DNA of 64,000 nt. It comes from Halomonas sp. CUBES01. Its GTDB lineage: Bacteria; Pseudomonadota; Gammaproteobacteria; Pseudomonadales; Halomonadaceae. The notes beneath the pieces were generated by a model. That model was not told the DNA's origin. It saw nothing but the letters and a program-made list of their open reading frames with translations, and ran no database searches. Below, piece by piece: positions 47,824 through 55,756 of this stretch (position 1 is the stretch's first letter; the number at the start of each line of letters is the position of its first letter). Made by a program: the position numbers and the translations under genes. The stretch covers positions 1 to 64,000 of the forward strand of contig NZ_JAJLLW010000008.1 in NCBI RefSeq assembly GCF_020991005.1, written 5' to 3'.

Positions 47824-47929
47824 TGAGCATTTCCTTTATGGTCAAGTCGGCTCGTATAACCACTGTCGAGTTTATCCCAGGAGTGGCACCCGACGCCAAT
47901 CGATATCTGCTGGCAATGCCTTAAGTTCG

Positions 47930-47945
47930 CATAATATATATTATG
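47930..47945. promoter_or_regulatory. Perfect 16-base AT palindrome upstream of the ATP-grasp cluster
   Basis: CATAATATATATTATG is a perfect palindrome in the divergent gap between the DUF3833 gene and the retropepsin-like gene, about 100 bases from each. It could be an operator or part of promoters on either strand. Which regulator binds is unknown. Confidence 0.5.
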
Positions 47946-48045
47946 TTAAATAAAGGGTGTCGACAGTGAAATCATCAAGCGGTGTTGGACAATGGGTCTG
48001 ACTACTCCTTATCATTCGTCTTCTTATTGTTGAAGGATATAGCGA

Positions 48046-53204: not shown

Positions 53205-54362
53205 TTATAACGTGTCAGCGTCGTCTTGGGTGGCCTTGGGCGCAATCTGATGGCGCTGTTGTTCATGGTGCCACTCGATGGCTTCATTATGCAGATAGCG
53301 CGCAGTGGTATCCAGGCGCGAGTGGCGTGCGCTATCGGCCAGGTGTCGCAGGCTGATGCCCGCCTGGGCCTGATGGGTAATCGAGGTGTGGCGTAACCAA
53401 TGCGGGGTGGCCTTGCGCAGCGCGGCGACATGCGCGGGATTGCCTTCGGCGGTTTGCAGCGCGTCGGCCGCCTCATTGAAGGTATCGCGTATCAGCCGGT
53501 AAAGCTGGTTGTGGCCAATGCCGCGCTGCCCGTCCAGCGCGCGAATAAGCGGTGTGTCGTCATGATGCGCGGGCATCCCATGATGACCCAGGGCGTGTCG
53601 CCACTCGATGAGACACGCTTGCATATCCGACGGTAGCGGAATGCGCGCGATCTTGCTTCCTTTGCCAACCACCGACCACCACCAACGCCCCTCGCTTTGC
53701 TGGAAATCGCCCATGCGTGCCTCGGCCATTTCACTCACTCGGGGGGCTAGCAGATAGGCAAAACCAAAGATAAACCGTCGCCGGCCGTGTTCGTAAGCTC
53801 CGCGTTCGCCCTGCCCTGCTGACTGGTTCAACCACTCCCAGAACCACTCCCACAGCTCGCGCTCCAGGTAGCGTTCAATTCGCTGTGTCTGATTGTTCAA
53901 TCGGCGTGATTTATCGCGCATCAAGCGAAACGGGTTATGGCGTACCCAGCCGGCTTCGACCAGCCAGCTGTAAAGCCCCTGCAGAATAATCAGGCTTTGC
54001 CGGCGGCTGCTGGGCGAAAGCCCACCGCGAAACGGCCGCCATTGAGGATGCTGGCGTGGCTTGGTGGGCCCCACCCACTGGGCGCTTGGCTGAGGGTCGG
54101 CCAAAAACTGCTCGAAGTCGCGTAGTACCTCGCGATTGACCTGCCCAAGCGTCAACCCCTGGTGCGTCAGCCAGAGTAACAGCCGCTCGGCCTCCCGACG
54201 GTAGCATTTCCAGGTTTGTGGACTTTCCTGGTACTCGGCAAGCCACGCCGCCACCGCCTCCACGTCCGTGTTGGCGGTAATCTGTGGCAAAACCGGCGAC
54301 TCGCTGAGGCTTTCCAGCGGCGATATCGCGTTGGCGATAGCTGTATGATCCCGTGTTCCCAT
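53205..54362 (-). CDS. Tyrosine recombinase (phage integrase family)
   Basis: A 385-residue site-specific recombinase. The N-terminal SAM-like/core-binding region (about 33-150) has YQESPQTWKCYRREAERLLLWL; the catalytic domain holds a complete active set: Arg208 (APRVSE), Lys234 (GKGSK), His321 and Arg324 (PHWLRHTSITH), His347, and the nucleophile Tyr356 (TTARYLHNE). It looks active. It is too divergent and too long for XerC/XerD, and no phage or plasmid genes are near. It is divergent from a KfrA-type gene, with inverted repeats between them, an arrangement like tnpS/tnpT of Tn4651-type transposons. The leader is purine-rich on the transcript. Confidence 0.88.
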   Translation of the reverse strand: MGTRDHTAIANAISPLESLSESPVLPQITANTDVEAVAAWLAEYQESPQTWKCYRREAERLLLWLTHQGLTLGQVNREVLRDFEQFLADPQPSAQWVGPTKPRQHPQWRPFRGGLSPSSRRQSLIILQGLYSWLVEAGWVRHNPFRLMRDKSRRLNNQTQRIERYLERELWEWFWEWLNQSAGQGERGAYEHGRRRFIFGFAYLLAPRVSEMAEARMGDFQQSEGRWWWSVVGKGSKIARIPLPSDMQACLIEWRHALGHHGMPAHHDDTPLIRALDGQRGIGHNQLYRLIRDTFNEAADALQTAEGNPAHVAALRKATPHWLRHTSITHQAQAGISLRHLADSARHSRLDTTARYLHNEAIEWHHEQQRHQIAPKATQDDADTL

Positions 54363-54396
54363 TGGCGCCTTTCTCCTCTCTGCCTTCTGCTATTTT

Positions 54397-54420
54397 CCCT
54401 CTTCCCTCTTCCCTCCTCCC
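54397..54420 (-). promoter_or_regulatory. G-quadruplex-type tract in the recombinase leader
   Basis: On the minus strand there are four GGG runs separated by four-base purine loops (AGGA, AAGA, AAGA), fitting the G3-N1-7 quadruplex pattern. On the plus strand these are CCC at 54397, 54404, 54411 and 54418 within a longer polypyrimidine tract (about 54371-54432). It lies 35 bases upstream of the recombinase start on its coding strand. Confidence 0.6.
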
Positions 54421-54486
54421 TCATTTTCTACTTATTTATTCGATCCATTGGTTGGCGAGTGCGCTAAGTCTGCCTTGCACCACCAG

Positions 54487-54520
54487 TAAATTCAAGATAA
54501 GGCGGGTAATCTTGAATTTA
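54487..54520. repeat. 12-10-12 inverted repeat, candidate recombinase core site or operator
   Basis: TAAATTCAAGAT (54487-54498) and its exact complement ATCTTGAATTTA (54509-54520) flank a 10-base spacer AAGGCGGGTA. The TTCAAGA element recurs nearby: TTTAAGA at 54526-54532 and TCTTGAA at 54570-54576. Paired arms around a short asymmetric spacer are the layout of tyrosine-recombinase crossover sites. KfrA operator binding is the alternative. Confidence 0.6.
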
Positions 54521-54547
54521 TATAGTTTAAGATAAATAAATTACATT

Positions 54548-54562
54548 TTACGTATTACGTAA
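54548..54562. repeat. Palindrome TTACGTATTACGTAA upstream of the KfrA-type gene
   Basis: A perfect 7-1-7 palindrome sits 66 bases before the KfrA-type start. It is a good candidate for autoregulatory binding by that protein, since KfrA proteins repress their own promoters. Confidence 0.5.
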
Positions 54563-54627
54563 TATTGCCTCTTGAAGTGAATAGCGGCACAATCACCACC
54601 ATCAACCCCCGCAACAGGAGCCTCTCC

Positions 54628-55668
54628 ATGGCGCGCAGCGGCATTCAGTATTCCGATGTTCAGCAGGCCATCGATACGCTGCTCACCCGGGGCGATACCC
54701 CGAGCGTGCAGCGCATTCGGGAAGTGCTGGGTACCGGCAGCTACACCACCATCAGCGAGCATTTCCGCCAGTGGCGCATCGAGCGGGACAACAACCGGGA
54801 CGTGCCGCCGCCCAAGGGCGTGCCCGAGGCCGTCGCCAGCCTGGCCGGCGAGCTCTGGAAAGAAGCCCTGGAGGCTGCCCAGCAGGCGCTACATCACTAT
54901 CGCGAAGAAGCCGACCGACAGGTAGAGGTTGCCCGACGCGAGGCAAGCGACGCTGATCAGCGTGCCGCCAACGCGGAGCAGCGCGAAAGCGCCCTGGCCG
55001 AACACCTTCGGCATACCGAAACCCGAGTGGAAGCGCTCAGCCGTGACCTTGCCGCCAGCCAATCGGACGAAGCCCACTGGCGGGCGCAGTCTGATGAAGC
55101 CCGCAGCGAAGCGGCCAAATCGCAAGAAGCCTATGAGCGGATCCAGCAGCAGCTGGCCGAACGTGAGGCAAGCCATGCCGAGCAGCTGAATCGCCAGCAG
55201 GCCGAGTGGGAGACGCGTCTGGCTCAGGAAGAGCAGCGCCACGAAGCTGCCGAAGATCGCCTGATGGGCTTGCTAGACAGTGCCCGACAGGAGCGCGCGC
55301 AGGAAGAAGCCGCTTATCAGCAGCGCTTGAAGCAGGCCGATAAGCGTAATGAGACGCTGGCTGGCGAGGTAAAAACCCTAGAGCGCACGTTGCATGAACA
55401 GCAGTTGGAGGCCCAAGCTCAACGTCAGGCGCAGACCCGCCTAGAAGAAACGCTGGAAACCCTACAGAAGCGCCTTGAGGAAGTTACCCAGCAACGCGAG
55501 GCAGCGGAAGCGTCGCTCGCCAGACAGGCACAGCAGCATGAAACACGGGAAAGCGCCTGGCAGGAACAGCTGTGGTCACGCATGGACGCCATGCAGCAAC
55601 AATTGACGAACCTGCCCGCGTCGCTGTCGCATCAAAAGGAAGACGGTTCGGGCAATCAGCCGGATTAG
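54628..55668 (+). CDS. KfrA-type DNA-binding coiled-coil protein
   Basis: A 346-residue protein with an N-terminal KfrA_N DNA-binding domain (about 1-115: YSDVQQAIDTLLTRGDTPSVQRIREVLGTGSYTTISEHFRQW) and a long, alanine/glutamine/glutamate-rich coiled coil (about 90-330). KfrA proteins bind DNA by the N-terminus and multimerise by the coil. The ATG at 54628 follows CAGGAG; the open frame to 54565 has no such site. It is divergent from the tyrosine recombinase, suggesting an accessory or regulatory role. The auxiliary protein TnpT of Tn4651-type transposons occupies the same position beside tyrosine recombinase TnpS, although similarity at sequence level is untested here. Confidence 0.85.
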   Translation: MARSGIQYSDVQQAIDTLLTRGDTPSVQRIREVLGTGSYTTISEHFRQWRIERDNNRDVPPPKGVPEAVASLAGELWKEALEAAQQALHHYREEADRQVEVARREASDADQRAANAEQRESALAEHLRHTETRVEALSRDLAASQSDEAHWRAQSDEARSEAAKSQEAYERIQQQLAEREASHAEQLNRQQAEWETRLAQEEQRHEAAEDRLMGLLDSARQERAQEEAAYQQRLKQADKRNETLAGEVKTLERTLHEQQLEAQAQRQAQTRLEETLETLQKRLEEVTQQREAAEASLARQAQQHETRESAWQEQLWSRMDAMQQQLTNLPASLSHQKEDGSGNQPD

Positions 55669-55705
55669 AGGGGGCATAAAGATAAGCTGCCAAAAGGGCT
55701 GATAC

Positions 55706-55735
55706 AAAAAAGCCCAGCGTTTGCTGGGCTTTTTT
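55706..55735. terminator. Bidirectional terminator between the KfrA-type gene and nfuA
   Basis: AAAAAAGCCCAGC (55706-55718), loop GTTT, and GCTGGGCTTTTTT (55723-55735) make a perfect 13-base stem with A and T tracts, serving both converging genes. Confidence 0.95.
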
Positions 55736-55756
55736 GAGGTGTATAACCGGCAAGGA

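Follow-up and report, generated by a model that had tools for sequence, protein, structure and literature searches.

In a 64,000-nucleotide stretch of DNA from Halomonas sp. CUBES01, which we refer to as the window, a tyrosine recombinase gene and a divergent kfrA gene form a module between sufE and nfuA, with a presumed recombination site and a presumed KfrA operator in the gap between them. We conclude that the pair is an ancestral chromosomal module of the Halomonadaceae and not a transposon remnant. Judged by its sequence it is very probably an active recombination module acting at the site at 54487-54520, and the reading that we favour, with rather better than even confidence, is that of a domesticated plasmid-derived module that would resolve sister copies at the terminus in parallel to XerCD/dif. 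The module consists, in order, of:

53205 to 54362, minus strand: tyrosine recombinase of 385 amino acids, with R208, K234, H321, R324, H347 and Y356 as catalytic residues
54487 to 54520, no strand: presumed core site, TAAATTCAAGAT, a 10-bp centre and ATCTTGAATTTA, with the core at 54492-54515
54548 to 54562, no strand: presumed KfrA operator, the palindrome TTACGTATTACGTAA, on the kfrA side of the site
54628 to 55668, plus strand: KfrA/TnpT-type coiled-coil DNA-binding protein of 346 amino acids; the start at 54565 in the list of open reading frames is probably too early

The window sits on a 161,396-bp contig of an assembly of 3.6 Mb and 30 contigs. An initial annotation had described a divergent recombinase/KfrA pair at these positions with all six catalytic residues in the recombinase, and the open reading frames, Pfam matches and a residue check agree with it: the recombinase matches Phage_integrase at 49 bits (cut-off 27.1) and its catalytic residues are intact. 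The named proteins closest to it, among the best 120 of 1043, come from Halomonas and Vreelandella. Searching 151 Halomonadaceae genomes for a match at E 1e-20 we found an orthologue in 126 of them and in 20 of 24 genera, as one gene per genome, which the search reported in two pieces in 5 genomes. The open reading frame was recovered in 126/126 genomes with five of the catalytic residues in every case and the tyrosine in 125, and ratios of nonsynonymous to synonymous substitution (dN/dS) of 0.07-0.16 across 8 pairs point to purifying selection. One stretch (L206, genome G122) holds a decaying copy of 196 amino acids with an internal stop, where the site is still there. Gene order was compared in 20 longer stretches, which include five from genomes sampled before and genera down to 43-46% identical; sufE lies on the recombinase side in 20/20 and kfrA on the other side in 18/20 (not in G018 and G037). 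The pair had been placed between sufE and nfuA with no transposase, terminal repeats, phage genes or cargo in view, and the conservation of this one locus across the family agrees with that placement. A genomic island or recent transposon is ruled out by the constant locus and the single copy per genome. We likewise found no Tn3-family transposon context, the neighbours being housekeeping genes in conserved order, though no tnpA profile search of the whole window was made.

The repeat in the gap spans 34 bp: two perfectly inverted arms of 12 bp each flank a 10-bp centre, and this is its only place in the genome. The 64 kb has four places with perfect repeats of 12-bp arms and 4-12 bp spacers, against none in six first-order Markov simulations. 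We ran a leave-one-out profile of the 34-bp site on 129 gaps (124 genomes, five of them twice; G086 and G094 left out). The site beats the best of 129 shuffled gaps at all 124 loci (120 genomes) that have kfrA inside the stretch. The remaining 5 loci have no kfrA within the stretch examined: one of these genomes has the site at a second locus, in G018, G037 and G016 it lies farther off together with kfrA, and the stretch of G052 ends at a contig edge. Overall the site is present in 123 of the 124 genomes scanned, G052 being the exception, which upholds the earlier proposal of a site in the gap; the proposed limits of that gap, 54363-54627, also agree with the probable kfrA start at 54628. The link with the recombinase was examined in 44 hand-picked, mostly complete genomes, using the core pattern with at most one mismatch. 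The site was found in 37/37 recombinase-bearing genomes versus 0/7 recombinase-less ones, and it has one place in 29 of the 37. Several positions of both arms are invariant and positions 15-19 of the site are variable; such a variable centre is as expected for a crossover region that would need to match the sister copy alone.

Because there is one site per chromosome in most genomes, the sister copy would be the sole regular partner, and a sister-copy partner argues for resolution rather than inversion or integration. The recombinase would act on the palindromic core and cleave there, the substrates would be sister copies, and the outcome would be the resolution of dimers or of late sister links at the terminus, alongside XerCD/dif and possibly with a dependence on FtsK. 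Of the jobs proposed at the outset, a dimer-resolution type of activity is thus the likeliest, while DNA inversion is unlikely given the single place in 29/37 genomes. Inversion and integration are common roles of tyrosine recombinases, and exact extra copies of the site on plasmid pZB5060 (G018), on a 9.8-kb contig (G007) and on the chromosome of G079 could be expected of an inversion switch or of a mobile-element integrase using the site as att. This explanation, already disfavoured by the single-place genomes, is made very improbable by G018, G037 and G016 as well, where an insert of 8-9 kb sits between recombinase and site and a single site copy was found in those stretches. For G018 and G037 the extra DNA that parts the recombinase from site and kfrA was also put at roughly 9-18 kb.

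Several observations on stray sites stand beside this. In genus g16 and in Zymobacter, where extra DNA intervenes, site and kfrA remain together (L233-L235, L064, L066, L213). The second exact-pattern site of G079 (G079:C1:2507933; L245 position 8934) has a different centre and lies on the same chromosome, 400 kb from the first. The small contig G007:C7 (9,766 bp; L244 position 8343) has the left arm and centre of the host site with a different right arm, and it also carries two replication-initiator-like genes and two integrase-like open reading frames, as judged by eye. Six viral contigs (L253-L258) match the exact core pattern, and the stretches examined hold neither the pair nor its neighbour genes. 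As to a phage origin of the site, a composite site query against an annotated phage collection gave 7 weak matches, none named as a Halomonas phage.

The partner protein has a KfrA_N domain at 96.8 bits (cut-off 26.1), and its coiled coil is predicted from SMC-like matches. Over its N-terminal 127 residues it is 35% identical to TnpT of Tn4651 (E 5e-14). The protein read from ATG 54628 aligns with TnpT from its first residue, which makes this the probable kfrA start. The operator, scored at 12 or more of 14 positions, is present in 122/124 gaps versus 1/124 shuffled ones, and in 116 of the 122 it starts 54-62 bp past the start of the site; this near-rigid spacing suggests one nucleoprotein complex. 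KfrA would bind the operator, probably repress its own gene and serve as accessory factor to the recombinase. A terminator-like inverted repeat lies beyond the gene:

55705 to 55736, no strand: terminator-like inverted repeat between the convergent kfrA and nfuA

The pattern of loss separates the two elements of the gap. We looked for kfrA in 20 of the 25 genomes that lack the recombinase and found it kept in 17 (the match in G024 is weak, E 8e-13). In all 17 it adjoins sufE and the operator is present at 12-14 of 14 positions (L260-L265, L267, L268, L270-L278), and the site is missing from the 3.9-kb stretches of these same genomes, where the best candidates have 4-6 mismatches. This pattern assigns the operator to KfrA, and the site goes with the recombinase. 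One of the recombinase-less genomes, G091 (L261), has a recombinase remnant beside the retained kfrA. The same 17 genomes, each with kfrA beside sufE and with its operator, are what one would expect if the leading part fell to KfrA, as a DNA-binding protein near the terminus that serves the nucleoid or segregation, with the recombinase as its optional helper. We regard this as improbable: site and recombinase are lost jointly and so form a unit of their own.

The window also holds the chromosomal dif site, which the initial annotation had missed together with the XerC- and XerD-type genes of the genome and the presence of the site on plasmids:

47924 to 47951, plus strand: chromosomal dif of XerCD, a resident system separate from the pair, with GC skew about zero nearby

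It lies 6.6 kb from the core site. Up to about 44 kb the GC skew runs from +0.02 to +0.06; it drops to about zero from roughly 42-44 kb on, stays at -0.03 to +0.01 thence to 60 kb and is +0.02 over the last few kb, a pattern that one may expect near a terminus. Elsewhere in the genome we found a XerD gene at 363.8 bits, above the family cut-off, and a XerC gene at 330.3 bits, just under 335.15; with dif in place, XerCD/dif is thus apparently complete in the genome that carries the pair. In 33/33 genomes where both could be located the distance from site to dif is 4.9-36.5 kb (median 7.8 kb). Measured from dnaA, the median position of the site is 0.48 of the circle for the 29 genomes that have a chromosome-size contig. 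The outlier G023 has it at 0.20 of the circle from dnaA, yet 6.7 kb from dif. Outside the family, two genomes of the Oleispira-type genus g144 carry a sister-group recombinase-kfrA module beside a XerL-type gene (L032, L034); its presumed site is 3-3.5 kb from the XerL-type site and, in G484, 0.47 of the circle from dnaA. These genomes help as a second lineage for the terminus position. In G280 the module lies about 94 kb from the genome's own dif. With a fixed consensus dif pattern, matches came from only 12 of 47 genomes, nearly all of other families, and a pattern of the arms alone gave 14 of 39.

To place the recombinase among known systems we built a tree of 67 proteins, in which six long branches were flagged so that the placements of outlying rows are unsure. 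The 34 Halomonadaceae rows form one weakly supported group, beside two Oleispira-type proteins, G280, G367 and a protein of plasmid pRR3-57. Plasmid proteins of Burkholderia, Paraburkholderia, Cupriavidus, Rhodanobacter and Pseudomonas branch outside, TnpS is far away, and XerL is a separate 100/100 clade that does not contain the window protein; L036 (G494) joins XerL on a long branch. The relatives of the recombinase are, by sequence, the KfrA-linked plasmid recombinases and XerL. Membership of XerL itself is ruled out by the tree.

The initial annotation had likened the pair to the tnpS/tnpT resolution module. As described in two papers (PMC7157771, PMC4619425), Tn4651-type elements have divergent tnpS and tnpT with rst between them, made of core and accessory palindromes (a figure legend in PMC7157771 swaps the two gene names). 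The layout of TnpS/TnpT/rst of Tn4651 (pWW0) is indeed shared, with a divergent recombinase and KfrA_N protein and with core and accessory palindromes in the gap, and TnpT is homologous to the window KfrA, so this half of the likeness stands. The other half falls: TnpS gives a best BLASTP E of 2.0 against the window recombinase and is a far outgroup in the tree, so that the recombinase is no detectable TnpS homologue. Unlike Tn4651, moreover, the window has no tnpA beside the pair, which is chromosomal and vertically inherited. With XerL/dif of Legionellales the module shares a single tyrosine recombinase, long symmetric perfect arms and a single terminus-proximal site, and in an alignment the identity of six XerL-type proteins to the window recombinase is 27-29%. 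It differs from XerL/dif in having a KfrA partner and in coexisting with XerCD/dif; Legionella XerL works without a partner, also in yeast (PMC9765430). Like XerCD/dif it has one terminus site and Xer-like catalytic residues, but the recombinase has its own site and scores far under the curated NCBIfam cut-offs (XerC 66 of 335 bits, XerD 45 of 330 bits). The TnpR tyrosine-recombinase subgroup of Tn4401, presented in PMC8138268 as simple Xer-related recombinases of beta- and gammaproteobacteria, is 34% identical over residues 28-363. In contrast to that subgroup, the window protein has no Pfam match to DUF3701 at E 0.001 and is encoded at a chromosomal core locus, not on a transposon.

KfrA-linked recombinases are also found on plasmids. 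A KfrA_N gene is the divergent neighbour of the recombinase on Burkholderia, Paraburkholderia and Rhodanobacter plasmids. Clear palindromes stand in the recombinase gaps of Burkholderia, Paraburkholderia and Halioglobus, and the Rhodanobacter scan listed none of this kind; a Cupriavidus gap has a palindrome with 9-bp arms and no annotated kfrA. The arms of these plasmid sites are unlike those of the window, Halioglobus excepted, whose arms are ATTCATGATTA and whose KfrA-like open reading frame was judged by eye.

The site itself recurs on some plasmids of the family, small ones among them. We queried 72,556 plasmid records with 40 bases of the window site; 5 records matched, of which four are Halomonas (pIGAnt2, p2-bachu37, pHAL40 and a 45.9-kb H. 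qaidamensis plasmid) and the fifth, from Jeotgalibacillus, is at chance level (E 6). A Zymobacter site query matched pZB5060 over 24/24 bases (E 2e-3) with three further records at chance level, and a third site query again recovered pIGAnt2 and pZB5060. The dyad motif is found, with 0-2 mismatches, on every one of the five Halomonadaceae plasmids, and four of them, viewed whole, have no annotated recombinase in the PLSDB gene table, which is incomplete. Plasmid pZB5060 (Zymobacter palmae, 5,060 bp; L243/L283 position 3326) has the exact 24-bp core of its host with no flanking similarity and no annotated recombinase. On the 4.4-kb Halomonas plasmid p2-bachu37 (L280 positions 521-1480) the site lies 8 bp beyond the end of a KfrA_N gene. 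Such plasmid-borne sites resemble cer and pdif sites, and some small Halomonadaceae plasmids would probably borrow the chromosomal recombinase for multimer resolution.

The plasmid data could also mean that an ancestral plasmid integrated near the terminus and that its multimer-resolution pair was kept as a relic stability module. It would now serve mainly resident plasmids, or nothing but its own survival, and take no part in segregating the chromosome. The related sequences on pRR3-57 and on Burkholderia and Cupriavidus plasmids, the small plasmids that carry the site and a position that synteny accounts for all agree with this account, but the module is kept in 20/24 genera with intact catalysis under purifying selection, and an exact second copy of the site on a small contig occurs in 2/37 genomes. 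We consider it unlikely, with resolution at the terminus as the better reading.

A number of points weigh against that better reading of a terminal resolution system. Its recombination activity is a prediction from sequence, and the Halomonadaceae clade has weak support (74/16) versus its sister group. The recombinase is missing from 25/151 family genomes and is therefore dispensable, so that it would serve in parallel or as a backup; KfrA persists where recombinase and site are lost and therefore has an additional job of its own. An extra site place with at most one mismatch is present in 8/37 genomes, exact in 3 of them, and the single plasmid matches of the site are weak (E 2e-3 to 2, and 3e-3 to 2 for the four Halomonas records). 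No dif match was found in G022, which has the recombinase. Finally, synteny extends to sufE, nfuA, metH and other neighbours; closeness to dif within the family is therefore not independent evidence of a terminal function and may be inherited gene order. Redundancy and substitution among resolution systems do have precedents: PMC11724359 describes two redundant dimer-resolution systems on the Enterobacteriaceae plasmid R27 and Cre/loxP as able to replace dif in an FtsK-dependent manner. A literature search by title and abstract, with partial coverage and subscription journals mostly outside it, found no paper on the present system.

XerL/dif has been described for Legionellales (PMC9765430). 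In our survey 20 of 32 genomes had no XerD match at E 1e-40, and 19 of the 20 also lacked a dif-arm match when up to one mismatch was allowed; 13 of the 20 are in a XerL-type alignment (A1), whose divergent member L051 (G430) comes from a genome with XerCD and dif. Scanning named genomes with A1 gave 410 confirmed stretches, and the best 80 of them include Thalassolituus, Oleispira, Marinomonas, Microbulbifer, Thalassotalea, Thalassomonas, Granulosicoccus, Rickettsiella, a Legionella bin and others. The palindrome TTCCGATAA-6 bp-TTATCGGAA or close variants occur near XerL-type genes at 33 places, 6/22 order-level and 27/80 named loci, a count made with no shuffled control and in which L032 and L084 are the same contig. 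In the 16 genomes where dnaA was located (10 of them in A1, some lengths to two digits), the recombinase relative stands 0.39-0.50 of the circle away from it, 0.44 or more in 15, and XerC was matched at E 1e-25 in 3 of 21 such genomes, never above the cut-off. Taken together this suggests that XerL/dif extends to many XerCD-less gammaproteobacteria, well beyond Legionellales. It bears on a question left by Carnoy and Roten (PMC2731167), of how Saccharophagus, Colwellia and other bacteria with large chromosomes manage without dif/XerCD.

From an evolutionary point of view, it is conceivable, if somewhat short of an even chance, that the two parallel terminus systems, XerCD/dif and a KfrA-assisted recombinase with a dif-like site, represent a living intermediate of the kind of exchange by which relatives adopted XerL in place of XerCD/dif, and that KfrA has itself become a protein of the terminus. 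The usual picture of dimer resolution gives each chromosome a single system. With another one inherited a few kb from dif, and with site and operator separable, redundancy and replacement of Xer systems would become testable in harmless, tractable bacteria. In the Halomonadaceae a plasmid-type resolution module would have turned into chromosomal core equipment, which small plasmids apparently use.

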